From a virus: a DNA stretch of 33,482 bases. The position numbers were made by a program, and so were the translations under genes. The stretch is taken from positions 1-33,482 of the IMG/VR virus record IMGVR_UViG_3300032246_002017; one strand, given 5' to 3'. The notes beneath the pieces were generated by a model. That model did not search any database. It was not told where the DNA came from and was given only the letters and a program-made list of their open reading frames with translations. Of this stretch, positions 3,001 to 29,958 are shown piece by piece; the stretch's first letter is position 1; each line of letters starts with the position of its first letter.

Positions 3001-6000
3001 TATATGCATCTGCAGATGCACCTGTACCCGAATCGCCTGGTGCAGTAGTAATAACCACAGAGGGTTTTTGAGTATATCCTTTTCCAGGATTGGCAATCAG
3101 TACACTGCCCAATTGGTATTTGTGATTATCTGCCCAATCTTTCCAAGGTTGTTGATCTAGCAGGTCATCGCCGAGATTCACGACTTCTACTGCTTGATTT
3201 ACTGAATTATAGTAAGGAGGCAAATCAAAATCAGTAGTATAGATATAAGAAGGATCTCCCTGACCGTTGATAGGATAATTGTAACTAGAAATAAAATTTC
3301 TTATCTTGGTATGATAAGGTTTAATCTCATTTATATAATCTTCAATATAACGATCATTGTCAAATTTATAAACTGGTCTCTGATCAAGAGTACCTATCTT
3401 ATTCACTATGTTAATAAAGGATGTTTTAAATGCCCAATCTAATAGTTTTTGTTCTACCAGTGCCGCTTTCACTGCTTTAAAAAAGAATCTATTCCAATTT
3501 ATCTTAAGACCATTAACAAATAAATCATTCTTGATAGCCTGTAATATTCGATATAATTCTAAATCAGGAGTTTGATCATACCAAGTTTCGTCGAGAGTAG
3601 CACTATCATAGGAATAATTTGTATTCGGATAATTCCAAATAGTATCCAATATCTGTATAGTGCCCAATTCACTGTAAACTATGTCATACCCGGTCGAGTA
3701 ATTTCCAGAGTCAGCAACTCGAGATAAAATAATATATCTTCCATCACCTATATTTTTTATCTTGATATAAGATCCAACAGCAACATCATTTGAAAAAGGT
3801 AACTGAGAAACGTCAGATGCTACAAGATCGAAATCTTTATAGGGATTAAAATCCTCGCTCTTCCAATCTACATATTTCCAGTACAAAGGAGTATTAAAAG
3901 ATTGTGTTTTAATTTTTGCCCACTGATCCACTGAATATGTATAAACATACTTAGACCATTTATTTGATGATGTAGGATCCGCGAGAACAATCACTGAATG
4001 AGGTCTAACTTCTAATATCGGTGCAGATATAAATTGAGATCCGGAATTCTTTACAATAGCATTGCTAACTTTCCCAAGTTCGTCAATTTCAACTAATATC
4101 TCTGCACCAGAAGAATTACTAGAAATATTCACTTTCGGCGGAAGACTATATCCAGAGCCCGGATTAACTATCGACACACTTTGAATTTTTCCATTGTTGA
4201 CAAAACACTGCAGTTCCGCTTGTTTAATACCAGTTGTGCTTATTTGATTTAAAGATTCTAAATCTTCAACAATTAAATCATATTCTCGAGAGGTTTCGTC
4301 TGGGATTTTCTCTTGACTTTCTAAATTAGCAAAATCATAATTTCCCCTCATTCTATTCTTGATAAAAACAGAATTAGCAAATTCTATTAGATTGCGTAAA
4401 ACTTCTAATCTATTTTTAAATAGAGTCTGTTGGGGACGAATACCAATTCCATACTTATTTCTTGGTGTCAATAAAGGAGAAGGAACCAAATTACCAAGTT
4501 GATCGCGCCCTAGTAAACTGTCAATAAGTTTTTTCTCAAGAAGAGAATTCGGAAGACTATTAACATCTCCTTCTTCTAATAATATCCACTCTGTATGTCT
4601 AGGAATATCAGTATTAATATTATCAACTACAATATTAGCATTAATTGTATTTCCTATTAGCGTAGGCTGAATATTTGCAAATGCTACTGCATCAGAAGAA
4701 ATAATTTCTGCAAATTTTAAACCTTCTGCTGCTGGATCAGCAATAATCCTAGACACTTGATAACTGCTAATTTTTCGATTTGGATTATTTGGAACTGTGA
4801 CTTTGTTCTTGACCCAAAAATAATAAACGTTCTCAAATGCCCCAGTTACATTGTTATAAACTTGTTTAACTGAAATAATTGAATTATCTGGATATTTGGG
4901 TTGGCCGCTAATTCCGTTGGTTAAACCATAACTAGTATCTGCCCGATTGGCCCATTCGCTAGGTAAAATATCTGATTTTACCCATTCATAAACATCAATG
5001 GTTGCTCCTGGAAATAATTTACCCCAATTATTTTTTTTATAAACTTCATCCCCTTGCTCGTACCAGATATACTTGGCAGTACTCAGATCCCACCAAAGTT
5101 CCCCTACATGCTCATCAATCCAACTTGTCGTAGTATCAACTGTTGTACCGGATACACCGATAGAATATACTGCAGGATCGTATACAGATCTGTAAGTTAA
5201 CTCTCGATCTGCTATTCCTGCAACTTTTCCTTTTAAAGGGTCAATGACATCAAGATAATCTACAATTTCATCATTCTTTGAATCAATGAGTGCTACTCTT
5301 TTTACAGTAGAGGGATCAACTAACTCTTCTTGTGATCTTAATACCTTCCAACTTTCACTATTAGAATCAATTTTCTTAAATTGATAAAATTTAGAATTGT
5401 CAGTTTCTAAAATAACTGTTAAATTATTCAGTACTGTATCATATTGATCTATCAAGGTAGCAGTTGGTGTATCAACATATCCAGAACCGGGAGATAAAAC
5501 AGTAACCCCACTGATGGTTTTCGTTGCTTCAGTTACTTCGCTATAAACGATTTCTACCGTAGGTATTACTCCCGGAAGTAGATCGGGAGAAGAAATACTG
5601 ACAGAAATCGTAGCAGTAAAGGGCACTACTACAGAACTAGTGCTTGAAAGACGTAGTGCTCTGATCCCAATCGGTACCGATGAAGGAGACCCTACAAAAA
5701 TATTGTTATTAGCAATTACAACCGAAGTTCCATATCTACTACCTTGTGATATATTGGCATCTGAAAGTTCTTCTGTCTGAACAAAAAATTCTCCTAGTTT
5801 AGTATAAAGATAGACCGCTCCAGAATCTGGTATAGGATCCACAAATCTAGTAGTTGCTTGATCAAAAGTTGTTTCTTTAGATTTATTATTAGAATCAAAT
5901 GTTAAAAATCTAGCCCTATTAGTGCCAAGAGCACTTATAGCCAATGTAGTCTCATTATCGCTAATAGAAATTGAATGGCCTAATTTTAAATCGGAATTAG

Positions 6001-9000
6001 TTAACGGATTTTCTATTATCTGACTAAGAACATATTGATTAGATGTGTTAACATATATTGCTACCTTTCCTTTAGGTTCTTCTGCTTTTCTTGCTTCGGT
6101 AGAAGATATCATCAAGTATTTTCCACTAGAAGAAACTACTACATCATTGCCAAATGGATCGTCAGTGCCAAATGGAGAAATTAATGTTTGTTTCCAATGA
6201 AGATTTTTATCAAAAATTTGAACTAACCCAGTAAAGGTCGAATTATAATGATTCGGTGCACTAATTGCAATAACATTTCCAAAATTATCTCCGGAGATTT
6301 TATGTCCCCAGCGGGCACCACTGGATAAAGTTATTGATGATGTACTGTTTACTCTAATACCAGACGGATGAGCAGAAATGGTCACCGTAGATGTATTTGT
6401 TGAGGTGTTCACTTGATACGCATACACAGAACCTGTATCAGAATAGTAATATCCACCCGGAGATCCAACTAATAATAAAGTAGATTGATTAGATGAAACT
6501 TGATTATTGTAAATTGAGTGACCAAATCTAGCATAGTTTGCAGTATAGCCTGTAGTAGCATAGGGACTAACTAACACCGCTTCTACCAGTTCTTGATTGT
6601 TTCTAATATCCCTACTGCTGACCTTAACAATACCTTCAGAAACAAAAGATTTGGTTGCACCAGATCCAGTACTTAATACAACCACCCCTGTTACGCTAGG
6701 TGCCCTAATTAAACTTGCCTCTGGGGCGCCAGCAAAGTATAATTTTTTACCTATATCATACGATAAAGAATAACCAAATTGAGTTGACGTTGACGGGTCA
6801 CAATACTGCTTAATAGCACTGTTTAGCGTATATTCATACTGTTTTTCAATAGAAGTGCCAACTTTATTATAAACCCAGACTTTGCCATAACTAGGGCCGC
6901 CGGTAGTATACCATGCATATGCAGATGTTAATAATATAGGACTATCATCTGTTGAAAAAATTTCAAATCCTAATTTTTGACCTGCTGGTTTGCTTGTAGG
7001 AGAAAATTCTAAAGCAGAAGAATAATTTTTTACTTTCTGAAAAACTTGCCATTTACCATCAAGTCCCTCATCAATCCAAATTTTTTCTCCATCAAAAAGT
7101 TTAAAAAGATTTTTAACACGAGAAAATTCATCTATATTAGAATATCTAGATTTTTCAAATTTAAATAACGCACCATAATATGGTAAATTCTCATCAAGAA
7201 TGTTAGATAAAGATGCCGAGACTGAGAATTGATTTGGTGCAATTATTTTAGTTACTCGATAAATCCCATTTACTTGATCATTGAATCTAACAACTGATAC
7301 GATGTCACCTTCTGATAGTTTATGATGATAATTGGTTACAAAGGTGATTTCTTCTCCGGGTATTGAAAGTATTACTCCCGTAATTTTCGCAACCTGTAAT
7401 GTGTACCTATAAACAGTCCAATCCCCGTTTTCTAAAAATCCTGTCCAAATAGTATCGCCTTCTTTTAATAAAGAATTACTTGCGATATCTAAAATACTGT
7501 TCTTATTATAAGCAGTGACAGTAACATCATCTTGTCGAACATAACCTGCAGTCACTAATTCTAAACCAGTATCGAAAAAATTACTCTCTGTAGTTTTAAA
7601 TGTTGCAGTAGTTAAATATCTGTCTGGCTTTATTAAAAGGTTTGACGTTTCAACATAATTAATTAAAGAATTTGGATTCTTGGGTTTTTGATCAACAAAC
7701 TTGACAATATAAGGATTTTCTAAAAAGGACCCTTCCTCAAGACCAAATTCAAGTTCTCTATACGATTCAAAAGATCCATAATTTCCTACCCTAAATGCCC
7801 AGGACTCATTGATTTCAATCTCGCCCTGTTTGTTATATTTGTTAACCTTGGCTAATTTTTCAATAGCAGTTTTTGTACCTTTTTGTTTAATAAATCCTTG
7901 ATAGAATTTATACTGAGCAATAGGTGTGGTAAAAATATTTTTTAGATAATTTCTTTCAGTATATCCTGTAAGATGTTGTGCTAACTTTTGCTGTTCGTAG
8001 TCAAAATTATCAATGTCAAGACTATAAAAATCTTCGAATTGCGATATTTTATAATCAAAATTAGGCAGCAACTGGGGAGTTGGTTCTACTGGAAGTTTAA
8101 CCCATTTATTAAAATCAAATGTTTCATCACCTACAATTTCTTTATTGGCCTGATAATATGAACCATTATATCGAACTACATTACCTGGAAGATAATGTGC
8201 AAATTTTTCCCAATTATTATATGAAACTGTATCATAAACGAAACCGGGACTAAAAAAATCACCGTCCCAATTTTTTGTTCTAAAACCCGATAGCCTAATT
8301 CTCTTCTGTCGATACCCAGATTCGATATCATACATAGTATCATTAAACATGGTAGTATTGTTAAACACCATCGCATGTTCTTTTTGTACAGAATTTAAGA
8401 CCGCAAAAAACAGACCTTCTTCAGTATCAGGTGTAGTAATTACACAAACTCCGTCTTCTCTAAGAATATTAAACTTATCAATTGGGAAAGGTTTTCCATC
8501 TGCCTTTAATAAAGAATATTCGTAATTTTTCGAAATAACTGAGTCAACAACTGAATCCGCATATGAGAATTTTAAATATTCTGCAAAGGGAGATAAAGTA
8601 ATTAAATTATTTTCTGCCCAATTTTGTGTAGTCCAATATAAAAATTCTTTGCCAGTAAATTTCCAATCAAGAATTTCAGACAATGATTCATTATATTGGT
8701 CAAATATAAATCCTTGTTTTTTTAACCATTCTCCATACCCTATTATTAGATCATATACTTCCTGTGAAGTAGTAAGTTCAGATCCATAAGGAATTTGAGT
8801 TACCGTATTTTCAAATCTTACAGGTAACTGCACTGTGGTCCCTCCTTTTATTGGTAGAGACGGTAACAGTTGAAAGAGAGCAGGATCAAATGTAGGTTGG
8901 AGATTATGACCGACTTTAACCTTATAAAATTTTCCATTATATCTAACTATTTGCCCTTGTTTATAATATCTAGTTGTAGTTGCAGCCGTACTAGACATCG

Positions 9001-12000
9001 GAGTACTCGAACGATCGCTATTTAAAGAATTCGACCATTCTGTAAACGAGGCAGACACCCCCCCTACGGTTATTGATCCGGACGCTGTTGTCTTAATTGG
9101 TTTAAAAATTTCAAAATAAGGATTAACTCTGTCGTATCCTTTTATTAAAAATTTTCCATTATTCTTTTGAACAATAATTCCAGAAATTCTAGATGACCTG
9201 ATTGGATTACTAACATTTAAGATTAAAGAATAATCTTCAGGTGGTAAAGTTGCACCGCTACCAAACGAAGTGGGGTCAGTCGAATCAATTATTACCTGTA
9301 ATTTTTCTTTACTTGAAAATCCTCCTAATTTATGAAATAAATTAAAGTTCAAATAACTTAGATCTTGCTCTAATAAAGAACTGTAATTTAAATTATTTTG
9401 ATTTCCTCTTTCTTGGACATATACACCAAATCCAGCGATTTGAATATCAGTATCATTCGGTATTAACAAATCTGCAGGATTTAAATATATTCCTGTGTCT
9501 GCATAAGATATTTGATTAATCGAATTAATCAAAATTCTACTTACGTCATACAATCTAGAAATATACTTACAGGGATCTAATAATGCAGATGCTGCATTAA
9601 GTATAAAAGGCCAATAACTACTTTTTCTCCATGTGGTCTCTGCCGGGCCTTGATCGCCAAAAATCCAACTCGAATATTGATCTGTATATGCTACCGGCCC
9701 TACTAAAAATTGATCAGGACTTAAAAGTGCGCCGGCTGTGTCAACAGGAATAATATTTGTCAAGCCAGGTCTTGCATATTTTCCATTATATCTATGTTCA
9801 CCGGCAATATAGCCCAACTCTAAATCAGACCATAGTGCAGTATTATTTGAGGTATAAGGAGCAAAACCATAAAAATCTTCCCACCAAGAAGGCATGTTGG
9901 CAAAACCTAACATTTTCCAAGGTGTGGTATTAGGAGAATCAGTATCATAAAAGAATTTAAACAGTGCCCTCCAACTTCCAGAAACAGTAGTCCCCAATAA
10001 AGAGTCTATACTGTTTTTATAATTCCATGTAAATGGATCATCTTCATTAAATGAATCATTAACAGTTACATTGATGTTGAATATACCGGCCCATCTAATA
10101 AAATCCTTTGTAATTATTTTATTGAAATCATTAAAAGTATATCCGTTATCTCTAAATGCTCCCGGAACAACTGAGATAATATCAAATACATCAGAATTAT
10201 ATTTTGCCTTTATATTATTAAACACACGTTTTTCAAATTCTAAAATAACTTTGTCTCTATAATCGCCATAGGCACGCATCACACTACCGTCGTGTCCCTG
10301 AATTAATTCTACCACCCCTTCAACATAAGAATCATCATTATAAATTTCTGGATAAAATGCCGGATATAAGCCCATTGTTGAAGGTGTTGGCGGTATAAAA
10401 GAGCCCAGTGTGCTATTATATCTTACCACCGACATTGCATCACCGATTGCAATAGAAGACATCATACTATCAGTGAAAATGATACTAGAATTATTTTTAT
10501 TAAAATTAAAATCTCGGCCCACAACTAATTGTGTTCCATTGATATAAATTAAAACTGATTTCCTTGACAAAGATAAAAGATTAAAATCTATCCCGATTGG
10601 ATATTCGTTAATAGTTAGATCTTCTATAGTGAATTCAACAACTACTTTATCGTTGCCATGACCAATCATATCGGATGTATAATAAAGAGACCGAGTGCCT
10701 TTTGAACTGTTAATTCTCTTCAGTGCTTCGTCGAGAATTTCAATAGGCGATAAAGAATCACTAATTCCCGGTATGGTTCTTAACAGATTCATCTTAAATT
10801 GATTATAATGGTCAGCAGCTGATCTAATCGAATCTACTACATTATGCTCTTTCTTTCCAAGAAATATCTGTGTAAACGAAATAGGATTTTCATTTAGTAT
10901 TAATCTATTACCGTATTTAGAATAATCAGATAAATCTCTAAGATTACTATTTCCTGGAAACACCCCATTAAAATCAGTAATTCTATCGACCATTGAAGAA
11001 ACATGATCAGTTAATTCAGATAGTGTCATGTCTGTAACAGGACCATTTAAAGGATTGTTTGTTAAACTTAAAGGAGTTTCGTAATATCCATTTTCATTAG
11101 GTACCTGATTAGTAAATATTTTTAAAGTAGCAACTTCGTCTGTTGCAATAGACGAAGTTAAATTAACAACAATACTATCAGTCGTCGACGAAGTAACTGA
11201 AGATACTTTTTTATTTTTAATATAAACATCTACAGCCGAAGGGAGAGAAATAGGTCTATCAAAACAGGTAACTGTTAATGTATTGGTGGTCTCTTGAACT
11301 GTTTTTATTTCTATTACAGGTATTTGAAATACTTCAGAATTTTTCCAAACGTTTAAAAAAGATTCTGAATTATCAATATTATTAATTTTAAAAAAGGTAG
11401 TCTTGGTAGGCACTATAGAACTTATGTTATCAACACTGATAGTAATAATGTCTGATGTAAAATAATTCTTAAAAAGGTAACTGCCCGTCCCAATACTATT
11501 TTGATATTTTAAAGGAAACCCTAGAACTGGGTCAGATGTGCCTGTGCCTACATCATAACCGAATATCTTATTACCTTGAAAATTTCCTCGATAACTTAAC
11601 TGATCACTAAAACTATTACCTTGATCATCAAAAAGATCAAATAATGGTGGCTGATTTATTGTTGTATGCTGCTGAGATTGTTGCCATACTCTAGTAGAAC
11701 TATTATAATACCAACTTGTTCCTGAATTTTTTTCACCGTAACTAATCGGAGCAGAATCAAGATTCTTAGGCTTTTGATCTTCAACTAGTTCAATTACAGG
11801 GGAATCTCCCGAGAGATTGAATTCTACGCGATAAATTTTATTTCTTTTATCGTCGTCAATCTCAGCATTTAGAATTATTCGATGACCTTGTTCTAATAAA
11901 ACCCCGTCAATATAAAATCCATAGGATCCATTAATTCTAGAGTAGGCATCTTGTGTTTCTGTATCAATGAGATCAACATTTTTAATACCTTTTTTTCCAA

Positions 12001-12919
12001 AATTATAAAGTTGAATATTTGCTCTAAACTCAATAATCGGACGTTGAGCACGCTTATCAACAGTATATTTAGGAGTGGTATTATTAATTTCAGCAGAAAT
12101 TTTAATTACAGATTCGTGAAACCATCTATTATATCGTGTCCACGGATTAAAGTCAATGCTGGCCCGATTAATCGTAATATATTCCGGAGTTAATGGTAAT
12201 TTTTTATCATTATCAAAAGGGTAACTATCAAAGAGAGTACTGTCAAATCTCTCGTCAAAGATTGCTACTATCTGTTCATAGGGCTGCAAAGAATTAATAT
12301 CAATTAATACTATAGATGACCCGACTCCCTCAACTAAGAAAACTTTATTTTTGTAATCTGTAGATATGATATTGTCTGAAAAAGTTACTTTCATGCCATT
12401 GCTTAAATTGTATCCATTAGGCATAGTATAAGTTTCTCGGCCTAGAATTTCAGTTTTAACATCTAATCCCGGAGAATTTATTAAAATTAGATCAGGGCCT
12501 TCAGGTAACCAATAGTACTGAGAATAATTCAGTAATTTGTCCCAGTCTATATAAGGATCATAAGAATAAGTCTTGGTTCGAAATAGCCTATCAAGATTTT
12601 TGTTTTCACCGCCTTGTATCCCTATTTCATTGATTATATCATCATAGGCAACCACATCAGTAATATCAGAATTTTTATTCCTAAATACTAGTGCAGGCTC
12701 TAATGGATAATTTTTCCTAAGAGGAAGAGGTTCTTTAAGATAAATGTCTCTTAAAGGATCATATGTTGGGCTAGACAGAGATCCTACATATCCATCAATC
12801 CTTTCTAACTGAGGAGTACGGATTAACTGATCGATAGTACTAGATAAAAATTTAGAATTTTTTTCAGTTCTAAAATGTTCAGGTAATAATTTACTCGATT
12901 TTTTATTTTGATCAGCCAT
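1..12919 (-). CDS. Giant tail/baseplate structural protein (3'-partial, at least 4306 codons)
   Basis: A single open frame starts at ATG 12919, one base after the gp6 stop, with a GGAAG element just upstream, and stays open to the window edge. No stop is seen, so the C-terminus is missing. Residues about 1-1000 are rich in W/Y/P and resemble the very large virion proteins encoded after gp6 in cyanophage-type T4-like phages. Residues about 1310-1340 and 1567-1606 carry Y-x-x-G-x-x-V-R-Y-N-G-x-[FY]-Y motifs like small carbohydrate-binding modules. Residues about 1980-2420 contain seven FG-GAP-like repeats, suggesting a beta-propeller. PGSGY-type motifs recur near residues 2480, 2920, 3276 (as PGKGY) and 3320. 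The PEE..PGHVLDTL segment (residues about 3800-3830) recurs in my memory of marine T4-like structural proteins. The position corresponds to T4 genes 7/8/10, but no clear match to those proteins is visible. Its role as a peripheral baseplate or fibre-anchoring component is inference. Confidence 0.8.
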   Translation of the reverse strand, partial: MADQNKKSSKLLPEHFRTEKNSKFLSSTIDQLIRTPQLERIDGYVGSLSSPTYDPLRDIYLKEPLPLRKNYPLEPALVFRNKNSDITDVVAYDDIINEIGIQGGENKNLDRLFRTKTYSYDPYIDWDKLLNYSQYYWLPEGPDLILINSPGLDVKTEILGRETYTMPNGYNLSNGMKVTFSDNIISTDYKNKVFLVEGVGSSIVLIDINSLQPYEQIVAIFDERFDSTLFDSYPFDNDKKLPLTPEYITINRASIDFNPWTRYNRWFHESVIKISAEINNTTPKYTVDKRAQRPIIEFRANIQLYNFGKKGIKNVDLIDTETQDAYSRINGSYGFYIDGVLLEQGHRIILNAEIDDDKRNKIYRVEFNLSGDSPVIELVEDQKPKNLDSAPISYGEKNSGTSWYYNSSTRVWQQSQQHTTINQPPLFDLFDDQGNSFSDQLSYRGNFQGNKIFGYDVGTGTSDPVLGFPLKYQNSIGTGSYLFKNYFTSDIITISVDNISSIVPTKTTFFKINNIDNSESFLNVWKNSEVFQIPVIEIKTVQETTNTLTVTCFDRPISLPSAVDVYIKNKKVSSVTSSTTDSIVVNLTSSIATDEVATLKIFTNQVPNENGYYETPLSLTNNPLNGPVTDMTLSELTDHVSSMVDRITDFNGVFPGNSNLRDLSDYSKYGNRLILNENPISFTQIFLGKKEHNVVDSIRSAADHYNQFKMNLLRTIPGISDSLSPIEILDEALKRINSSKGTRSLYYTSDMIGHGNDKVVVEFTIEDLTINEYPIGIDFNLLSLSRKSVLIYINGTQLVVGRDFNFNKNNSSIIFTDSMMSSIAIGDAMSVVRYNSTLGSFIPPTPSTMGLYPAFYPEIYNDDSYVEGVVELIQGHDGSVMRAYGDYRDKVILEFEKRVFNNIKAKYNSDVFDIISVVPGAFRDNGYTFNDFNKIITKDFIRWAGIFNINVTVNDSFNEDDPFTWNYKNSIDSLLGTTVSGSWRALFKFFYDTDSPNTTPWKMLGFANMPSWWEDFYGFAPYTSNNTALWSDLELGYIAGEHRYNGKYARPGLTNIIPVDTAGALLSPDQFLVGPVAYTDQYSSWIFGDQGPAETTWRKSSYWPFILNAASALLDPCKYISRLYDVSRILINSINQISYADTGIYLNPADLLIPNDTDIQIAGFGVYVQERGNQNNLNYSSLLEQDLSYLNFNLFHKLGGFSSKEKLQVIIDSTDPTSFGSGATLPPEDYSLILNVSNPIRSSRISGIIVQKNNGKFLIKGYDRVNPYFEIFKPIKTTASGSITVGGVSASFTEWSNSLNSDRSSTPMSSTAATTTRYYKQGQIVRYNGKFYKVKVGHNLQPTFDPALFQLLPSLPIKGGTTVQLPVRFENTVTQIPYGSELTTSQEVYDLIIGYGEWLKKQGFIFDQYNESLSEILDWKFTGKEFLYWTTQNWAENNLITLSPFAEYLKFSYADSVVDSVISKNYEYSLLKADGKPFPIDKFNILREDGVCVITTPDTEEGLFFAVLNSVQKEHAMVFNNTTMFNDTMYDIESGYRQKRIRLSGFRTKNWDGDFFSPGFVYDTVSYNNWEKFAHYLPGNVVRYNGSYYQANKEIVGDETFDFNKWVKLPVEPTPQLLPNFDYKISQFEDFYSLDIDNFDYEQQKLAQHLTGYTERNYLKNIFTTPIAQYKFYQGFIKQKGTKTAIEKLAKVNKYNKQGEIEINESWAFRVGNYGSFESYRELEFGLEEGSFLENPYIVKFVDQKPKNPNSLINYVETSNLLIKPDRYLTTATFKTTESNFFDTGLELVTAGYVRQDDVTVTAYNKNSILDIASNSLLKEGDTIWTGFLENGDWTVYRYTLQVAKITGVILSIPGEEITFVTNYHHKLSEGDIVSVVRFNDQVNGIYRVTKIIAPNQFSVSASLSNILDENLPYYGALFKFEKSRYSNIDEFSRVKNLFKLFDGEKIWIDEGLDGKWQVFQKVKNYSSALEFSPTSKPAGQKLGFEIFSTDDSPILLTSAYAWYTTGGPSYGKVWVYNKVGTSIEKQYEYTLNSAIKQYCDPSTSTQFGYSLSYDIGKKLYFAGAPEASLIRAPSVTGVVVLSTGSGATKSFVSEGIVKVSSRDIRNNQELVEAVLVSPYATTGYTANYARFGHSIYNNQVSSNQSTLLLVGSPGGYYYSDTGSVYAYQVNTSTNTSTVTISAHPSGIRVNSTSSITLSSGARWGHKISGDNFGNVIAISAPNHYNSTFTGLVQIFDKNLHWKQTLISPFGTDDPFGNDVVVSSSGKYLMISSTEARKAEEPKGKVAIYVNTSNQYVLSQIIENPLTNSDLKLGHSISISDNETTLAISALGTNRARFLTFDSNNKSKETTFDQATTRFVDPIPDSGAVYLYTKLGEFFVQTEELSDANISQGSRYGTSVVIANNNIFVGSPSSVPIGIRALRLSSTSSVVVPFTATISVSISSPDLLPGVIPTVEIVYSEVTEATKTISGVTVLSPGSGYVDTPTATLIDQYDTVLNNLTVILETDNSKFYQFKKIDSNSESWKVLRSQEELVDPSTVKRVALIDSKNDEIVDYLDVIDPLKGKVAGIADRELTYRSVYDPAVYSIGVSGTTVDTTTSWIDEHVGELWWDLSTAKYIWYEQGDEVYKKNNWGKLFPGATIDVYEWVKSDILPSEWANRADTSYGLTNGISGQPKYPDNSIISVKQVYNNVTGAFENVYYFWVKNKVTVPNNPNRKISSYQVSRIIADPAAEGLKFAEIISSDAVAFANIQPTLIGNTINANIVVDNINTDIPRHTEWILLEEGDVNSLPNSLLEKKLIDSLLGRDQLGNLVPSPLLTPRNKYGIGIRPQQTLFKNRLEVLRNLIEFANSVFIKNRMRGNYDFANLESQEKIPDETSREYDLIVEDLESLNQISTTGIKQAELQCFVNNGKIQSVSIVNPGSGYSLPPKVNISSNSSGAEILVEIDELGKVSNAIVKNSGSQFISAPILEVRPHSVIVLADPTSSNKWSKYVYTYSVDQWAKIKTQSFNTPLYWKYVDWKSEDFNPYKDFDLVASDVSQLPFSNDVAVGSYIKIKNIGDGRYIILSRVADSGNYSTGYDIVYSELGTIQILDTIWNYPNTNYSYDSATLDETWYDQTPDLELYRILQAIKNDLFVNGLKINWNRFFFKAVKAALVEQKLLDWAFKTSFINIVNKIGTLDQRPVYKFDNDRYIEDYINEIKPYHTKIRNFISSYNYPINGQGDPSYIYTTDFDLPPYYNSVNQAVEVVNLGDDLLDQQPWKDWADNHKYQLGSVLIANPGKGYTQKPSVVITTAPGDSGTGASADAYIKDGKLYKVVVTNPGSGYVTPPVLTITNGGPYVTTTATVSPVMSNTEIRKNIIGFKFDRVGVNNEIGTVRTEDVFVCPGDRDRFTLTWLAEPDKSTITPTLDGKLILATEYTIEYYTEKYNGYSKKFSKFVFLNIVPENGQVLKIKYNKHVDLYTAVDRIDRFYSPTEVMPGKELPLLMTGAEYPQQIIQGLPISYSVPWSSGVPYDTTPWDDLIDYYTTAKLVSTATVRSTTLSLDTTTGLVPGQIINILNSSTIRLRTDTAILSINSSTGVIALDCPTYGIKYAKAASTSTGTTVTFKTRTDFLGDIKIGDLVFVSGMTTLGYNGQYTISGINNNDVFEVITTGTVSSIYGEASSTATVRVAAVLGTIPANNELLGHFWSTVTNVGSVLIRTFSKLSDVSRVSVKINNTSTSSYSLIEDYEISGRAAVQVPIIYTSSATTVTVDLFGNPTVEFWKFDSNVSSLDSLISGGTWTGTNFAGGLGVSPEDLIIRGDSFLSANDGYAPEESVPGHVLDTLSVEVYTQQSATKTLMITGAFSVEAGVTSTFVISEVTEAVGGFMLHIGGRILDATKGEYFIEGNVIRIPAQSYTGRGGYTIVNVGADRGVDGNAVFVQNQTEALVESLSYIGDIRSAYVLVDGQEINQISTTTDYGYMLSNVSSENNRACVRVYNMPQGNHTIEAWFFRSIHTKFNRISEERFSVTDPQTVFSLSKQPGILEPLSVQAIVEVDDNAGRRRLSPPWVSYYKLDGIELTYKIDSKHDRPSGTYGEGNVRAFANGYTLRSGFDYTVDSVNSTITLTSGILEAGDVLAIEGLVDYEYVILGNILTLGAAVDNAEIKVISFTDHDNMMLRTDRFAGVLTRKFVLSRDVMNDNYIWASVNGRPLIARYDFKILNDKRTVELSEWIDFQVGDEILISTINTSEFGGKILGFRVFKDLFDKNHYIRLSKYHSTVLAKDLLHSDTEIFVQDATELVPANPARNIPGVVFIDSERIEFFSKEG

Positions 12920-23749: not shown

Positions 23750-24661
23750 ATGACGCAAAGTGCACCTACTTCTGAAAGAAAGGTAAAATACCTAAATAAT
23801 CGAGATTTACTTGCAGAAATACATAAAAGCAAATGTTCTTTTTCTAGTTTTATTAAACCAGAATATCATCAATTTGACTTAATCTTAACAGAATTAAGTA
23901 GAATTAACATTAGAACTATCGCCGAGGCAAAAAGAAATAGAGCAAAAAGACTAGGATTAATTGCATTTACCGAGGCACGAAAATCTGGGGACAAAAAGAT
24001 TAAACTATCCGAAATTACTCCAGACTATAAAACTATTCCAAAAACTGATCTAGTGTTCAGAATTATGACTTTCGATCATATTCCGCTAGCACCGGGTCGT
24101 AAAAAAACCACTAAAACTACTGCAGATAGTCATGACAAAATTAATTTTCCGCCATATCAGCATTGGAAATTCAACGAAGAAGACGAACTAATTTGTATTG
24201 GTAAAAGTCATTGGAAGGGCGACCTAGTTAAAGGAAAATACTCAAAAGATCACGGACGAATTACAGAAAATCTCGGCAAAATGTTTATAAAATTAAGCGA
24301 GCGGTATGCTCAAAGAAGCAATTGGCGTGGCTACACATATGTAGAAGAAATGCGGGGACAGGCTATATTGCAGTTAAGCCAAATTGGTCTTCAATTTGAC
24401 GAAAGCAAAAGCGAAAATCCATTTGCTTATTATACCGCAGCGGTGACTAATAGTTTTACTAGAGTACTAAACATTGAAAAGAAAAATCAAAATATTCGAG
24501 ACGATATGTTAGAAGAGCACGGGCTAACTCCTAGCACTACTAGACAGCATCAACAAGAATACGCGGAAGAAACTGCTCGGCAGGCAGAATTGTATAAAAA
24601 TATGCGTATGCCTAAAAGTGAAGAAACAGTAGCAGAGGACGATGACGAAACGGCCGTTTGA
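23750..24661 (+). CDS. 55: Late-transcription sigma factor gp55 (extended form)
   Basis: This 303-residue protein is a gp55-type sigma factor, which binds host RNA polymerase core and recognises the minimal late promoter (TATAAATA in T4). The N-terminus KYLNNRDLLAEI parallels T4 gp55 (NYVNNKELLQAI). The C-terminal half (residues about 180-260) has the family core: LGKMFIKLSERYAQRSNWRG, then YTYVEEMRGQAILQLSQIGL, QFDESKSENPFAYYTAAVTN and SFTRVLNIEKKNQNIRDDML. T4 gp55 has about 185 residues; the extra length lies mainly between residues 40 and 170 (with FRIMTFDHIPLAPGRKK and SHWKGDL). The acidic C-terminus does not show the hydrophobic clamp-binding tail of T4 gp55. The gene is first behind a consensus sigma70 promoter and starts an operon with the recombination nuclease. 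Confidence 0.88.
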   Translation: MTQSAPTSERKVKYLNNRDLLAEIHKSKCSFSSFIKPEYHQFDLILTELSRINIRTIAEAKRNRAKRLGLIAFTEARKSGDKKIKLSEITPDYKTIPKTDLVFRIMTFDHIPLAPGRKKTTKTTADSHDKINFPPYQHWKFNEEDELICIGKSHWKGDLVKGKYSKDHGRITENLGKMFIKLSERYAQRSNWRGYTYVEEMRGQAILQLSQIGLQFDESKSENPFAYYTAAVTNSFTRVLNIEKKNQNIRDDMLEEHGLTPSTTRQHQQEYAEETARQAELYKNMRMPKSEETVAEDDDETAV

Positions 24662-24693
24662 CTTTGCCCAACATACAATATAAACTATTTGTT

Positions 24694-24700
24694 AGGAGGG
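24694..24700 (+). promoter_or_regulatory. Strong ribosome binding site that sets the gp47 start
   Basis: AGGAGGG lies six bases before ATG 24707. An in-frame TTG at 24689 lies upstream of it and cannot use it, so the ATG is the better start. Confidence 0.75.
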
Positions 24701-24706
24701 CGCGCT

Positions 24707-25720
24707 ATGGCCTTGTTTAAAAAGGTAGCAGTCTTTACAGATCTTCATGTGGGCCTTAAATCCAACTCTGCAACTCATCTTAAAGACTGTGAAGAATTTG
24801 TAGACTGGTTTATTGAGCAGGCCAAGGAAAACAACTGCGAGACCTGTATCTTCATGGGTGACTGGAGTCATAATAGAAACAGTCTCAATCTTTTTACTCT
24901 TAACACATCACTGATCTTGTTAGAAAAATTAGGGGCCGCGTTTGATCAATTCTTCTGGTTTCCGGGCAATCACGATCTGTTCTATAAAGATAAACGAGAT
25001 ATTCATAGTTCAGCATTTGGTCGACATATCCCAGGTGTAACTGTGGTAGAAAGATTAACCACCATAGATGACGTAACTTTAGTCCCTTGGTTAGTCGGCG
25101 AAGAATGGAAACAGATGCGATCTGTTAAGAGCAAATATGTGTTTGGGCATTTAGAATTACCTTCATTTTATATGAACGCCATGATTCAAATGCCCGATCA
25201 CGGTGAACTTAGAGCCAGTGATTTTAAAGGGCCCGATTATGTTTTTTCTGGGCACTTTCACAAACGACAAACCAAAGATAACGTAGTTTATATCGGTAAT
25301 GCGTTTCCCCACAATTTTGCAGATTCATGGGACGACGACCGAGGTATGATGGTGTTAGAGTGGGGAGGAGTTCCCAAATATATTAACTGGACTAACGCAC
25401 CCAAGTATAGAGTTATAAAACTCAGTGAACTAATTGATCAGAAAGATTCTATAATGAAATCTAAAATGTACTTAAAAGTACATTTAGACATTGATATCAG
25501 TTTCGAAGAAGCAAACTTTATCAAAGAAACATTTATGACTGATTACGATATTAGAGAAATTAGTCTTATCCAAGATAAAGTTAATCTAGAAGGAACATAC
25601 GAAGATAATCCCGAAGGAAAATTTGAAAGTGTTGATCAAATTGTTTCTGAACAATTAATCAACATTGAATCAGAACAGTTTGATAAACGAGTTCTATTGG
25701 ATATCTACAATAATCTATGA
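24707..25720 (+). CDS. 47: Recombination endonuclease subunit gp47 (Mre11/SbcD-like)
   Basis: This 337-residue protein (from ATG 24707) is the nuclease subunit of the gp46/gp47 complex, which resects DNA ends for recombination-dependent replication and, in T4, host DNA degradation. All metallophosphoesterase motifs are present: DLH at residues 12-14, GDW at 51-53, GNHD at 87-90, GHLE at 147-150 and GHFH at 182-185, giving the two-metal site. T4 gp47 has 339 residues, so length is normal. The C-terminal part (from about 230) should form the capping/gp46-binding region. Its stop (TGA 25718-25720) overlaps an ATG (25717-25719), a coupling arrangement that once led straight into gene 46; the ORF from that ATG is now a 12-codon remnant because an HNH gene has been inserted. 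Confidence 0.95.
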   Translation: MALFKKVAVFTDLHVGLKSNSATHLKDCEEFVDWFIEQAKENNCETCIFMGDWSHNRNSLNLFTLNTSLILLEKLGAAFDQFFWFPGNHDLFYKDKRDIHSSAFGRHIPGVTVVERLTTIDDVTLVPWLVGEEWKQMRSVKSKYVFGHLELPSFYMNAMIQMPDHGELRASDFKGPDYVFSGHFHKRQTKDNVVYIGNAFPHNFADSWDDDRGMMVLEWGGVPKYINWTNAPKYRVIKLSELIDQKDSIMKSKMYLKVHLDIDISFEEANFIKETFMTDYDIREISLIQDKVNLEGTYEDNPEGKFESVDQIVSEQLINIESEQFDKRVLLDIYNNL

Positions 25721-25755
25721 CATTTCTCATTAAAAATCTCACAGTGAATACATAG
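25717..25755 (+). pseudogene. Remnant 5' end of gene 46 (12 codons then stop)
   Basis: The ATG overlapping the gp47 stop opens a 12-codon frame reading MTFLIKNLTVNT, closed by TAG at 25753-25755. The intact gp46 begins MFKICNLTVKNF, so the NLTV block is shared in the same reading phase, and 14 bases (AATCTCACAGTGAA) are identical between 25735-25748 and 26395-26408. This is best read as the original gene 46 start, cut off by insertion of the HNH gene. Confidence 0.65.
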
Positions 25756-26408
25756 TACTGCTTTAGGAGTATATTATGCCAAGAGGTGGGTTCCGTTATA
25801 AAAGAACATTTACAGAGGATGAATTAAAGTTGATTGCTGACCCAAATATATCATTAACTAACCTATGTGAGTTAGTTAATGCCTCTATGCCGACTATAGG
25901 TAAAATACGGAAAGAATTAGGAGTGACTACTATCAAGGGCCGACGAGCAGGAGCACTTATTCCGCAACAGCGACGAACTATTCAGTGTGTTTGTCAAAAT
26001 CCAGTGTGTAGAAAAGAATTTAGTTCAATACAATCGGTCCCTCGAAAATATTGTAGTCATTTGTGTCATATTACTGTATACAACCCAGGAGTAAAAGGTG
26101 TCGGCAATGGAAAGATGCGTAATCCAAATACTCCAGAATATAAAAGGTATGTAAGACAGGTTCACAGTTTGAGTCAAAAAGTATATGAACAAAATATAGA
26201 CATCATTAATCCAGAACGACATCCTCGAACCCTGTGCGGAGTTGAGGGAGGATGGCAATTAGATCATATTATTCCTATTAAAGAATGTTTTGAAAACGGT
26301 ATAACAACAGAAGAGGTATCAGCAATTACCAATCTCCGAATGCTTCCATGGAAAGATAATCTTATGAGACAATACAAAAATGTTTAAGATTTGTAATCTC
26401 ACAGTGAA
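25735..26408 (+). repeat. 14-bp direct repeat flanking the HNH gene
   Basis: AATCTCACAGTGAA occurs at 25735-25748 and again at 26395-26408. Just upstream each copy has ATT plus three differing bases, so 17 of 20 positions agree. The left copy lies in the gene 46 remnant; the right copy lies in codons 6-10 of the intact gp46. The repeat brackets the HNH ORF almost exactly and probably arose when the endonuclease gene entered the start of gene 46. Confidence 0.75.
25776..26387 (+). CDS. Free-standing HNH homing-type endonuclease
   Basis: This 203-residue protein has a TTAGGAG ribosome binding site six bases before its ATG. Residues about 10-50 look like a helix-turn-helix DNA-binding unit (FTEDELKLI to NASMPTIGKIRKELG). 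Residues 71-97 carry a Cys/His cluster (C71, C73, C78, C93, C97) that could hold zinc. Residues 160-196 form the HNH core: QLDHIIPIKECFENGI with Asp163-His164, then NLRMLPWKDNLMR with Asn186 and the downstream N/K positions. It separates gp47 from gp46, which are normally adjacent, and a duplicated gene 46 start flanks it, so it is most likely a mobile intercistronic homing endonuclease. Its stop overlaps the gp46 ATG by 8 nt, so gp46 translation may now depend on it. The cleavage site is unknown; the gp46 start is the obvious candidate. Confidence 0.85.
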   Translation: MPRGGFRYKRTFTEDELKLIADPNISLTNLCELVNASMPTIGKIRKELGVTTIKGRRAGALIPQQRRTIQCVCQNPVCRKEFSSIQSVPRKYCSHLCHITVYNPGVKGVGNGKMRNPNTPEYKRYVRQVHSLSQKVYEQNIDIINPERHPRTLCGVEGGWQLDHIIPIKECFENGITTEEVSAITNLRMLPWKDNLMRQYKNV

Positions 26409-28158
26409 GAATTTCATGAGTGTGGGTAACCAAACTCAAGCAGTATCTTTTGATCGAGAACATCTTACCTTGGTATTGGGATCAAACTTGGATCTAGGCG
26501 GGGACGACACCGGCTCAAGAAACGGAACTGGAAAAACTACCATTATCAACGCACTCAGTTACGCATTATATGGCCAAGCATTGACCAATATCAAAAGAGA
26601 AAATTTGATCAACAAGATTAATGGAAGGGGAATGTTAGTCACTGTTGAATTTGAAAAAGATAATCTCAAGTATCGCATCGAACGGGGCCGCAAACCTAAT
26701 GTGCTAAAACTCTATGTCAATGATAGTGAATTAAAACTTGACGAAGAAGACGACAGTCAGGGCGACAGTAGAGAAACACAAAAAGCCATTGAACAGATGC
26801 TAGAAATGAGTCACACCATGTTCAAACATCTTGTGGCGTTGAATACCTATACCGAACCATTTCTCTCTATGAGAGCCGCTGATCAAAGAGAAGTCATCGA
26901 ACAATTGTTGGGCATTACTTTATTGTCTGAAAAAGCAGAAGCATTAAAATCCACGATCAAAGATACTAAAGAACAAATTACCAGTGAAGAATTTAGAATC
27001 ACCAGTGTCAAAACTGCTAACGAAAACATTCAAAAAAGTATCAACAGTTTACGACTTAAAAGCAGTGCTTGGGATCAAAAAAAGAATTCAGATATCGAAT
27101 CATTTAACAAGGCCATTGTCCAATTAGAATCAGTTGACATCGAAGCAGAATTGGGAGCACATAATTTATTAAAACTGTGGACCGAAAACGATACTAAACT
27201 GAGAAATCTCAACAAGCAGAAATCTACACTAGAATCTGCAGTCACGCAGGCAGAACGAACTTTAAACAAATATACCAAAGAACTAAACACTCTGGCCAAC
27301 AAAACCTGTCCGGCATGCGAACAAGACCTGCACGATCACAAGCACGAAGAAATGACTGCCAAGGTCGTTGAAAACATCACAGAGTCAAAAAAATATCTCG
27401 ATAAAGTCACAGGAGACCTAAACAAGGTATTAAGTGAGGTTGCCGCAATAGGCGAACTTGAACATAAGCCTAATACGTTCTACGAAACACAAGAAGAAGC
27501 ATTAGGACATAAAAATAATTTAAACAGTCTAGAAAAATCTCTAGAATCTCGAATTAATGAAACTAATCCCTATGACGAACAGATTGTTGAGCTCGAAAAT
27601 TCTGCCCTACAAGAAATTAATTGGCAAACTATTAACGAATTAACCAAATTAAAAGATCATCAAGAATTTTTACACAAACTGTTAACCAATAAAGACAGTT
27701 TTATTCGTAAAAAAATTATTGATCAAAATCTAAATTATCTAAACAAACGATTAAGCTATTACATTGATACACTGGGGTTACCCCATCAAGTGATTTTTCA
27801 AAACGATCTTTCTGTAGAAATTACACAACTAGGACAAGATCTAGATTTTGATAATCTAAGTCGCGGTGAAAGAAATCGACTGATTCTATCAATGAGTTTT
27901 GCGTTTCGAGATGTATGGGAAGGCCTATATCAAAACATTAATCTCTTGTTCATCGATGAGATGGTAGACAGCGGTATGGATGGGGCTGGCGTTGAAGCAG
28001 CACTCGCAGTTCTAAAAAAGATGTCTCGAGATCGAAATAAGAATATATACTTAATATCACACAAGGACGAATTGATCGGCCGTGTGAACAATGTGCTAAA
28101 AGTGATCAAAGAGGGTGGATTTACCAGTTACTCAAATGCTTCCGACTACATCGAATAA
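26380..28158 (+). CDS. 46: Recombination endonuclease ATPase subunit gp46 (Rad50/SbcC-like)
   Basis: This 592-residue ATPase partners gp47 in DNA-end resection. The Walker A motif is at residues 45-54 (GSRNGTGKTT), a coiled-coil region runs from about 170 to 470, and a zinc hook CPAC sits near residues 310-313. The ABC signature LSRGERNRL lies near residue 492, Walker B NLLFIDE near 521-527, and the switch histidine is in LISHKDE near 557. Length is close to T4 gp46 (560). The start overlaps the HNH stop and has only a poor Shine-Dalgarno sequence, so it probably relies on coupling. The original start seems to have been the remnant at 25717: the present N-terminus MFKICNLTV repeats it with changed first codons. 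The 3' end overlaps the next ORF. Confidence 0.95.
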   Translation: MFKICNLTVKNFMSVGNQTQAVSFDREHLTLVLGSNLDLGGDDTGSRNGTGKTTIINALSYALYGQALTNIKRENLINKINGRGMLVTVEFEKDNLKYRIERGRKPNVLKLYVNDSELKLDEEDDSQGDSRETQKAIEQMLEMSHTMFKHLVALNTYTEPFLSMRAADQREVIEQLLGITLLSEKAEALKSTIKDTKEQITSEEFRITSVKTANENIQKSINSLRLKSSAWDQKKNSDIESFNKAIVQLESVDIEAELGAHNLLKLWTENDTKLRNLNKQKSTLESAVTQAERTLNKYTKELNTLANKTCPACEQDLHDHKHEEMTAKVVENITESKKYLDKVTGDLNKVLSEVAAIGELEHKPNTFYETQEEALGHKNNLNSLEKSLESRINETNPYDEQIVELENSALQEINWQTINELTKLKDHQEFLHKLLTNKDSFIRKKIIDQNLNYLNKRLSYYIDTLGLPHQVIFQNDLSVEITQLGQDLDFDNLSRGERNRLILSMSFAFRDVWEGLYQNINLLFIDEMVDSGMDGAGVEAALAVLKKMSRDRNKNIYLISHKDELIGRVNNVLKVIKEGGFTSYSNASDYIE

Positions 28159-28480
28159 AGAATTAGACAAGTACAAAGATCTGTGCTCTCAATTGGCCAC
28201 AGAATTTGTAGAATTTTACAATGATAATCTGGGATTTTTTAAAACATTGGGCAGAGAGCCCGGATATGCCGCAAGAAAACATCTTAGAAATATAGAAGAT
28301 CTCGCAAAACAATTGAAAAAACAAAGTCAATTGGTGAACAAAGAAAATTTAGCCAACCTTCGTATAGAGGCTAAATTAAATAAACTCAAGGCAAAGAAAA
28401 AGAGTGGGCCTCGAGGAAGACCAAAAAAAAATCAAAAGCCAATAAACAATGACATGGACACATCAAGGCACGATAGTTAA
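28136..28480 (+). CDS. Small basic protein with C-terminal AT-hook-like motif
   Basis: This 114-residue ORF overlaps the end of gp46 by 23 nt when started at ATG 28136. A GTG at 28115 would add seven residues, but it lies within the GAGGG element and has no clear binding site of its own. Residues about 5-85 look helical and charged (KELDKYKDLCSQLATEFVEF, then KHLRNIEDLAKQLKKQSQLV). The tail KLKAKKKSGPRGRPKKNQKP contains a G-R-P core flanked by basic residues, the pattern of AT-hook minor-groove binders. I do not recognise the family. A DNA-binding accessory role alongside gp46/gp47 is inference from the tail and operon position. It overlaps the following GIY-YIG gene by 32 nt. Confidence 0.65.
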   Translation: MLPTTSNKELDKYKDLCSQLATEFVEFYNDNLGFFKTLGREPGYAARKHLRNIEDLAKQLKKQSQLVNKENLANLRIEAKLNKLKAKKKSGPRGRPKKNQKPINNDMDTSRHDS

Positions 28481-28874
28481 TGAACTTCCCGAAGATTGTG
28501 TGGGTTTTGTGTATTGTATAACCAATTTAACAAATAATAGAAAATACATAGGCAAAAAACTGGCAAAATTTAGTAAAACGACCTACAAGACTGTAAAGTT
28601 AAAGAACGGCACCAAGAAAAAAAAGAAAATTCGTAGTAAAATAGATTCAGACTGGCAAACATATTTCGGCTCAAATCTAGAACTAAACAAAGATGTAGAA
28701 CAATTAGGCACTGAAAATTTTAAAAGAGAAATACTATACTACTGCAAAAGTAAGGCTGAATGCTCCTATATTGAAGCCCGTGAACAGTTTGATCGTAAGG
28801 TATTAGAATCGAAAGATTACTATAATGGTCAAATTTCTGTCCGGGTGCATGGCTCACATATACTAAAAACTTAG
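28449..28874 (+). CDS. GIY-YIG family endonuclease
   Basis: This 141-residue protein shows the GIY-YIG nuclease core. The first strand is GFVYCITN (residues 19-26, VYC replacing GIY), followed by KYIGKK at 32-37, a basic insert (residues 45-64), the DWQTYFGSN block at 68-76, FKREILYYC at 91-99, the likely catalytic glutamate in SYIEAREQF (Glu109), and a final N in YYNGQIS (Asn126). There is little beyond the catalytic domain, so no separate DNA-binding domain is seen. It starts inside the previous ORF and is thus part of the gp55-gp46 transcript. Similar free-standing proteins are common in T4-like phages and may be homing or DNA-processing enzymes. Its stop is 10 nt before the first arm of a candidate structured RNA. 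Confidence 0.8.
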   Translation: MTWTHQGTIVNELPEDCVGFVYCITNLTNNRKYIGKKLAKFSKTTYKTVKLKNGTKKKKKIRSKIDSDWQTYFGSNLELNKDVEQLGTENFKREILYYCKSKAECSYIEAREQFDRKVLESKDYYNGQISVRVHGSHILKT

Positions 28875-28884
28875 GCAAATTAAA

Positions 28885-29162
28885 CGGTTACAGCTCGCAC
28901 TGGCTAATTTCAAGTGCTCGGAAACCTGGACCCAAGGTCACAGGGAGGAAAATCTCTTGCCGTTAAGAGTGCTCAACCACTACCCTATTACTGGATGAAG
29001 ATCGCTTATAAGCCCTGCGATTTGGTTGTTTGAAGATATTATAACATAGGCAAAAAGAAGGGTAATTCCCTAACGGCCTCAAGTATGATAGCATATACTT
29101 GTGGACCTGCCGTCAGAAATAAGAACTTGGCTCGAGGTACCGGCTGACCGCCTCTGTAACTG
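28885..29162 (+). ncRNA. Candidate structured RNA (about 278 nt, unknown class)
   Basis: No ORF of note crosses this stretch, but it is full of nested helices. A closing stem joins 28885-28893 (CGGTTACAG) with 29154-29162 (CTGTAACTG), nine pairs including one G-U. Inside, in order: 28897-28901 with 28913-28917; 28925-28932 with 28936-28944 (CCTGGACC/GGTC-A-CAGG, loop CAA); 28954-28958 with 28965-28969; 28974-28979 with 29023-29028 (CAACCA/TGGTTG) enclosing 29001-29005 with 29017-29021; 29059-29062 with 29068-29071; 29073-29077 with 29109-29113 (ACGGC/GCCGT) enclosing 29080-29086 with 29095-29101 (CAAGTAT/ATACTTG); and 29134-29137 plus 29141-29143 with 29148-29150 plus 29151-29154, looped by CTGA. 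The last helix competes with the closing stem for base 29154. The helices were paired by eye; no covariation was tested. Strand is taken from the preceding operon. Confidence 0.5.
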
Positions 29163-29430
29163 CCATAATGCTATTGACCGCTAAAGAACTCGACGAAAGA
29201 TCTCTTTGGATATATTTTTTTGCCCGGCAACGGGCAAAATGTGACCGTTGAATCTGACGAAGTATCTCTTCTTTCATAATGATTTACTGTTTAACAATAT
29301 GTTTAGACTTTTAAGATTAGAGATGAGATAACTGCTTCGAGCGATAGCGACGAAGCGAGTGAACAGAGTTCACTCTAAACTAATAAATAAATTCACTAGT
29401 ACATTCATTAAATTTTAGGATTCGAATATT
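29163..29430. other. Non-coding spacer with three further hairpins
   Basis: After the candidate RNA no convincing gene is seen up to 29430. The spacer holds a 9-bp hairpin with a GCAA tetraloop at 29218-29239 (TTTTGCCCG/CGGGCAAAA), a GCTTCG/CGAAGC stem at 29334-29339 and 29351-29356, and an 8-bp stem GAGTGAAC/GTTCACTC at 29357-29375 with an AGA loop. An AATAAATA late-type motif follows at 29382-29389. None of the hairpins is followed by a U-run on either strand, so they are not standard terminators. Confidence 0.6.
29382..29389 (+). promoter_or_regulatory. Possible late promoter (AATAAATA) for the 29431 gene
   Basis: AATAAATA fits the NATAAATA late motif. Transcription would begin near 29397 and leave a leader of about 35 nt before ATG 29431. 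The position is right for a late promoter, and the two hairpins immediately upstream mark the end of the previous unit. Confidence 0.4.
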
Positions 29431-29958
29431 ATGAGAATACATGAGGTTATTCTAGAAGATCAATCAGTAGATGAAGGTCTTAAAGACATCGTAGGCAGGG
29501 TAGGAGGCCATGTGGTAGGCGCTCTAGGTGCAGCAGGTAGATACGCTGCCGATTCCTGGAAGGATGTTAAAGCAGGTTACGATGACGCTAAAAGTTATTG
29601 GGATGCACCGGGAACACGCCCGGCACCTAGGCCTGCACCTACTAGTTCAGATCCTAGTCCGACACCTGCACCTAGTGAGCCCGTAAGAAAAGTTAATGAT
29701 GTAGTAGCAGACAAAGGCAACACCATTACTGGGCGATATACTGGTCTAAAAGGAAAAGAATGGGAAATCGTGGGCGGAAAAGTTTGGGATAATATTAAAA
29801 ATGACCCAACGAATGATAGACGTAATCGTATAACCAGAGATGCTACGGGTAAAATCTTTATCAATGCTGCTGATGCTAAAACAATATATGATTTATCAGA
29901 GAACAAAAAATCCGTTAGGGGAGATTTTTATAGTAAATTTCTAGATCAAATGCTCTAG
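29431..29958 (+). CDS. Unknown protein with proline-rich linker
   Basis: This 175-residue protein is not one I can name. It begins MRIHEVILEDQSVDEGL, a start style (M-[KR]-I-x-E-[IV]-I-x-E) that I recall from many small proteins of marine T4-like phages. Residues about 16-60 are Gly/Ala-rich and possibly helical (GRVGGHVVGALGAAGRYAAD). Residues about 60-85 form a linker of Pro, Ala, Ser and Thr. Residues about 95-175 look like a small folded domain (GKEWEIVGGKVWDNI, then KIFINAADAKTIYDLSENKK). An AGGA element lies about 10 nt before the ATG. Its end overlaps the convergent minus-strand gene by four bases (shared CTAG, 29955-29958). A late motif upstream and the neighbouring tail genes suggest a virion or assembly role, which is inference. 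Confidence 0.65.
   Translation: MRIHEVILEDQSVDEGLKDIVGRVGGHVVGALGAAGRYAADSWKDVKAGYDDAKSYWDAPGTRPAPRPAPTSSDPSPTPAPSEPVRKVNDVVADKGNTITGRYTGLKGKEWEIVGGKVWDNIKNDPTNDRRNRITRDATGKIFINAADAKTIYDLSENKKSVRGDFYSKFLDQML

Follow-up and report, generated by a model that had tools for sequence, protein, structure and literature searches.

Analysis of the window, that is the whole fragment of 33,482 bases from the IMG/VR virus record IMGVR_UViG_3300032246_002017, led to a conserved pseudoknotted RNA core at position 28884-29175, which is a full-length version of the Polynucleobacter-1 RNA (nhmmer homologues and consensus structure) and is followed by a 3′ module presenting the same short sequence twice. Coordinates are those of the window, and features lie on its + strand unless stated otherwise. 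Judged by covariation among homologues, the region is almost certainly a real structured RNA. Our tentative reading is that T4-like phages may encode here a structured non-coding RNA that acts in trans, both heptamers of which would be docked by one partner.

The RNA is found behind an operon at 23750-28158 that bears gp55 (late sigma factor), SbcD-like gp47, an ORF and SbcC-like gp46 (PHROGs and synteny), and just 3′ of a SegE-like GIY-YIG endonuclease gene at 28449-28874 (Pfam PF19835, E-value = 1.1e-33). Synteny across loci gives the order gp55, gp47, gp46, GIY-YIG, RNA and then a convergent baseplate hub gene, which is on the opposite strand in 156/156 loci where it was located downstream. 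An ORF scan of the window showed that ORFs of at least 60 aa are absent between 28875 and 29430, and the GC content of the 28885-29162 region is 0.43-0.45 vs. about 0.31-0.36 in the upstream coding DNA. The non-coding character, the higher GC content and the position behind a GIY-YIG gene had all been pointed out in a sequence-only reading of this DNA, which described a compact multi-helix RNA at 28885-29162. These ends proved wrong, as conservation persists beyond 29162, with the core reaching about 29175 and the 3′ module extending to about 29265; that outline therefore missed the twin-heptamer module, the most unusual part of the RNA. Further downstream, at 29334-29375, lie two hairpins, namely GCTTCG-AGCGATAGCGA-CGAAGC and GAGTGAAC-AGA-GTTCACTC. 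The region of the first covaries (29358, 29360 and insertion columns) while the second is drawn from sequence alone, and together they probably mark where the transcript ends, with a putative terminator role. The conserved hairpin at 29334-29356 carries a tandem GA-like motif (GAGCG..GCGAA), and the hairpin after it may terminate transcription on both strands. Elsewhere in the window, an open frame of at least 4306 aa (2-12919, - strand) runs off the window end and adjoins baseplate wedge genes; its product is probably a giant tail or fibre protein.

Concerning its class, the RNA had been described as belonging to none that is recognized. Cmscan matched 28892-29031 with RF01718 (Polynucleobacter-1) at 108.7 bits, over a curated gathering score of 37 (E-value = 6.6e-23) and spanning the full model (1-141 of 141), which overturns that description. 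RF01718 alone reached its threshold in the Rfam search up to an E-value of 10, additional matches being chance ones. The same covariance search, which the earlier reading had proposed, gave no match at threshold for GOLLD, ROOL and HEARO, and neither Rfam nor ARAGORN matched a tmRNA, RNase P or group I intron, in line with its view that the RNA is none of the latter three. Polynucleobacter-1 was described in 2010 as probably an RNA and probably cis-regulatory (cis-reg 'y' in Table 1), from Burkholderiales and from fresh water or estuaries (Weinberg et al., 2010; PMC2864571), and is a family without known function (Rfam RF01718). Within the open-access literature the family name was found in that paper alone, and the accession also in a genome paper. 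As aligned here, RF01718 is a model of the 5′ half only of a conserved RNA about twice as long; homologues from viral contigs can be aligned to the window across about 290-300 nt, vs. 141 nt in the model.

Folding energy did not distinguish the region, as z was -1.29 for 28885-29162 and 21/200 shuffles folded as well, an unremarkable outcome of the shuffling comparison suggested earlier. Energy alone being weak, the proof of the fold is comparative. The sequence set consisted of viral contigs fetched via the GIY-YIG protein, the gp46 protein and two DNA patterns, from which near-duplicates were dropped at 95-97% identity for tree and covariation; contigs from related samples are not independent. 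Mean pairwise identity was 68% among 86 non-redundant homologues. For a 58-pair structure with three pseudoknots, 90.9% of the cells were paired vs. 73.8% after shuffling (38 sequences, MAFFT default), 45/58 pairs had changed on both sides vs. 32.1 in shuffles, and cells with double changes amounted to 346 vs. 104.5. When partner columns were shifted by 1-3, the double-change cells fell to 35-50, a control in which the consensus structure is favored because it was derived from the same sequences. A tree-based substitution null, our own version of the R-scape idea, gave 33 significant column pairs in 129 sequences, of which 24 were Watson-Crick; its E-values are rough because only 12 simulations were run, and its nucleotide tree included the tested columns. 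The earlier proposal of a compact RNA with many helices is thus borne out; the RNA is non-coding, measures about 280-300 nt and has a fold kept by compensatory change in homologues.

Three pseudoknots and a junction can be specified. Pseudoknot A joins 28884-28888 with the loop 28959-28963 of the hairpin 28952-28957/28965-28970; it is paired in 94% of the cells in 129 sequences and in 65% in the default MAFFT alignment (38 sequences), and its pairs 28884-28963 and 28886-28961 are significant under the tree-based null. Helix H3, CAACCA/TGGTTG (28974-28979/29023-29028), encloses a three-way junction with the hairpin 29003-29005/29017-29019 and is 99% paired with CG/TA/AT/GC alternation, three of its pairs being significant. 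Within this junction, 28983/28996 and 28986/28991 present strong non-Watson-Crick covariation (U-C with C-U), which is probably a tertiary contact. Pseudoknot B connects the hairpin loop 29090-29093 with the 3′ strand 29169-29172 (99% paired, GC/AT and CG/TA changes, significant). Finally, a 3′ sub-module at 29113-29165 harbors pseudoknot C (29113-29116/29144-29147), H6 (29128-29131/29162-29165) and H7 (29134-29137/29151-29154), all 93-98% paired with covariation. The individual stems listed by the sequence-only reading fared unequally in this test of compensatory change. CAACCA/TGGTTG and the CCTGGACC/GGTC-A-CAGG helix (87-91% paired) were upheld, and of two nested helices CAAGTAT/ATACTTG mostly held (84%) while ACGGC/GCCGT did not (57%). 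The 9-bp closing stem 28885-28893/29154-29162 has to be abandoned, as it is 60.9% paired vs. 62.2% in shuffles with two pairs showing double changes, and its strands pair otherwise in homologues, 28884-28888 in pseudoknot A and 29162-29165 in H6.

The 3′ module consists of two framed copies of one heptamer, CTC-[7 nt]-G for copy 1 and TCT-[7 nt]-A for copy 2, the flanks being constant and differing between the copies. In the window both are one base shorter, reading CTC + GACGAA at 29189-29197 and TCT + GACGAA at 29253-29261. Between them lies a hairpin, TTTTGCCCG-GCAA-CGGGCAAAA (29218-29239), whose inner seven pairs covary (92% of the cells paired, with alternation) and whose outer pairs are read from the sequence; copy-to-copy spacing varies, mostly within 47-61 nt. 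The heptamer differs from phage to phage (GGATAAT, AGATAAT, GGATGAT, AGATGAT, GGATGAA, AGATGAA, AGATGAG, GAATAAT, GCATAAT, GAATGAT, ACATGAA, ACAGAAA, ACGAAAT, TGGTAAT), yet its two copies match each other in essentially every genome, and their columns covary with the same letter, i.e., not as base pairs. Identical copies were found in 185/192 loci, the others, so far as they were inspected, being cut short or not caught by the pattern. A fresh sample, in which a pattern upstream of copy 2 was chosen blind to copy 1, gave 63 new sites, 59 of which had the identical heptamer behind ACTC at the expected place; two were cut by the contig end and two resembled chance matches, so that 59/59 testable sites were identical. 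With a stricter, heptamer-blind choice of copy 1 in this sample, 35 agreed and 0 disagreed. In shuffled versions of 2.5 million bases, the module signature turned up a single time. A listing of 171/171 identical pairs was set aside because its pattern demanded identity and is no evidence of it, and two further counts likewise took identical pairs only. On the tree, changes were concerted, on the same branch and with the same letter, in 26/26 cases at 29192/29256, 10/10 at 29196/29260 and 8/8 at 29193/29257, so that all 44 changes at the three best-sampled heptamer positions were joint; the counts are approximate because ancestral states were assigned by parsimony with random ties. At 29198/29262 copy 1 changed nine times and copy 2 eight times, eight changes being shared and seven of these with the same letter, and there are two mismatches, the window being one of them (A against G). 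No A/G mixtures between the copies were seen at 29192/29256 or 29196/29260. Two further interpretations of the copies were rejected: around copy 1 the flanks lack the covariation expected of a stem that carries the heptamer in a hairpin loop, and a coding reading of GACGAA, codon-like in the window, fails in relatives.

Nearly every member of the sampled clade of environmental T4-like phages carries the RNA, which was present in 72/72 gp46-fetched loci with enough sequence behind the GIY-YIG gene (six further loci were too short). The window type was found in 65 of the 72 and a third type in seven. The divergent type-2 RNAs, in five loci (e.g., L208:3600-4000) and about 30 more, occupy the same locus with a different 5′ part and have in common with the window RNA only the GGTACCGG..CAACCGCC pseudoknot sub-module (29113-29165 in the window) and the twin heptamers. 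Type-3 RNAs of about 390 nt (seven loci, e.g., L017:3429-3817) combine an unrelated 5′ sequence of about 330 nt with the same twin-heptamer module (ACATGAA, ACAGAAA). Nearly all RNAs of both types follow a GIY-YIG gene, and Rfam had no match for either, while L317 is a type-1 copy matching RF01718. Blastn with the window, type-2, type-3 and relocated RNAs (see below) found no homologue in isolated phages, and the fetched stretches of PA5oct, Phosso, Atu_ph07 and Melnitz held no recognizable copy. A first scan of bacterial genomes was empty and a second gave contigs binned into Methylococcaceae MAGs, which look phage-derived, and neither scan recovered a Polynucleobacter genome; apart from these few contigs, the carriers are metagenomic viral contigs. 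In two cultured jumbo phages, long unannotated gaps lie at the corresponding site behind gp46, of about 1.0 kb in Sinorhizobium phage Phosso (L410:15410-16425, folding to -319 kcal/mol over 1011 nt) and about 0.66 kb in Pseudomonas phage PA5oct (L411:15867-16531). Neither gap matches the RNA in sequence, but both would offer testable isolates, if related.

That the heptamers vary across phages yet are identical within each suggests one shared reader of both, and a single partner is the simplest account. The observed basis of such a model is that the RNA is independent of the GIY-YIG gene and often of downstream genes, and that the heptamers change in concert. Transcription of gp55-gp47-gp46-(GIY-YIG) would most likely yield the RNA as its 3′ end, immediately ahead of the late gene region, with termination or processing near 29375. 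No promoter for the RNA was found, and TAGGCA, tried as one, was not enriched. The pseudoknotted core of about 290 nt could hold up the 3′ module, showing the same short sequence twice with a hairpin between, and one partner, most likely a cognate phage-encoded protein (dimer) or an RNA, would read both copies with strict demands on their sequence, making the RNA a two-handed docking site or a decoy. A heptamer complement was detected neither in cis within the RNA, nor at a fixed genomic offset, nor in conserved flanks of nine large contigs, and a search for the RegA-type family found no match anywhere and is hence uninformative. A protein partner would have to change at every switch, and one position alone has switched between A and G at least 26 times. 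As U pairs with A as well as with G, the absence of mixtures is not explained by an RNA partner alone; it would be by a protein that reads strictly or by a requirement for identity at the DNA level. Against docking in general, the identity is stricter than ordinary RNA-RNA pairing needs and the folding energy is unremarkable. A broader reading, possible but rather doubtful, takes the 3′ module as an 'address' read twice by an identity-checking mechanism that acts on the RNA or on the DNA encoding it and whose cognate partner changes fast. Such a module, needing exactly identical framed heptamers, would then unite a class of phage RNAs that are unrelated in their 5′ domains, which is likewise more doubtful than probable. 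We know of no non-coding RNA family for which such a mechanism has been described. In any case, 44 joint switches at three positions, with no intermediate seen, call for an explanation, and the reader of the twin heptamers, whatever it is, should add a new component to phage biology.

Two identical short sequences within one RNA are a known arrangement among small RNAs, and the framed, mostly purine-rich heptamers would fit it as seeds of an antisense-type RNA, pairing with phage or host mRNAs and changing together with their target. This is nevertheless unlikely, as the complement of a phage's own heptamer was not enriched at its start codons (11 observed vs. about 14 expected, nine contigs), no conserved complementary site appeared in the phage contigs searched, and A/G mixtures, which would preserve pairing with U, were not seen at the two positions named above. 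The exact identity, extending to the one-base length change in the window and bounded by constant but different flanks (CTC/TCT, G/A), has a parallel at the DNA level, since exact identity is needed in the overlaps of site-specific recombination and in repeat-mediated template jumps. The direct heptamers could accordingly be strand-exchange or primer/template translocation sites with the hairpin as part of the site. We consider this quite unlikely: reverse transcriptase and tyrosine and serine recombinases were absent in 14 large phage contigs where controls were detected, the copy spacing varies, and a locus with the hairpin deleted was not noticed. Docking of both heptamers by one partner remains our preferred, if tentative, reading.

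Regulation in cis, as a 5′ UTR switch of the downstream gene, would agree with the marking of Polynucleobacter-1 (PMC2864571) and with the + strand gene that follows the RNA in 121/181 loci. It is improbable here and already weakened, as an exact TATAAATA late promoter intervenes between RNA and gene in 61 of those 121 loci, the downstream genes differ widely, and in 34 loci the convergent hub gene is matched less than 600 nt behind the RNA, leaving no downstream gene to be regulated. The cis-regulatory position proposed for the family, a matter of annotation and not part of the model, was thus not found at these loci. Downstream late genes, such as the ORF at 29431-29958 of the window and those of many loci, often start with M(K/R)INELI.E, and TATAAATA precedes many of them. 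Such a start is reminiscent of the peptide by which internal head proteins of T4 are targeted to the capsid.

The GIY-YIG gene is the usual upstream neighbor of the RNA and not an obligatory partner. Two loci (L215, L256) bear the RNA without it, while five others and more bear the gene without the RNA, another ORF following directly. The RNA is relocated in L202, where it is flanked, on the same strand, by a hub gene and a RusA-like gene, and in L206, where it is near DNA polymerase and exonuclease genes, which indicates an independent unit. In nine loci the GIY-YIG gene and the RNA are separated by an extra 0.7-1.2 kb; in one (L135) the insert ends with an HGSHIINKI-like tail as in the GIY-YIG protein, which suggests another endonuclease insertion. 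Membership of the RNA in a GIY-YIG homing element, with endonuclease and RNA together as in HEARO, is highly improbable and largely refuted by this dissociation, since the RNA usually adjoins the SegE-like gene but each occurs without the other, other DNA can intervene, the RNA is otherwise present throughout the clade sampled, and the obligatory linkage of endonuclease-associated mobile RNAs is lacking.

Among known systems, HEARO resembles the present case as a structured RNA beside an endonuclease gene, but that gene is of the HNH type in HEARO and of the GIY-YIG type here, where it is also dispensable to the RNA. Twin identical heptamers are, to our knowledge, not a described feature of GOLLD or ROOL. 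These are likewise large ornate non-coding RNAs with pseudoknots, some of them phage-borne (PMC12286853), although the window RNA is smaller. Marine phages such as Melnitz (PMC9004378) have a two-piece tmRNA, likewise a pseudoknotted, phage-borne structured RNA of T4-like phages; the window RNA differs in having no tRNA-like domain, and no copy of it occurs in the stretch of Melnitz that contains the GIY-YIG gene. The closest relative is Polynucleobacter-1 itself, as helices H1, H2 and H3 and the inner hairpin are common to the RF01718 model and the window RNA. In contrast to the family annotation, the context here is that of T4-like phages and many loci have no 5′ UTR position, while in comparison with the model the window RNA adds a core of about 150 nt with two more pseudoknots and then the twin-heptamer module. 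What was an orphan half-model in RF01718 is thereby extended to the full-length phage RNA, conserved both in its fold and in its genomic place.
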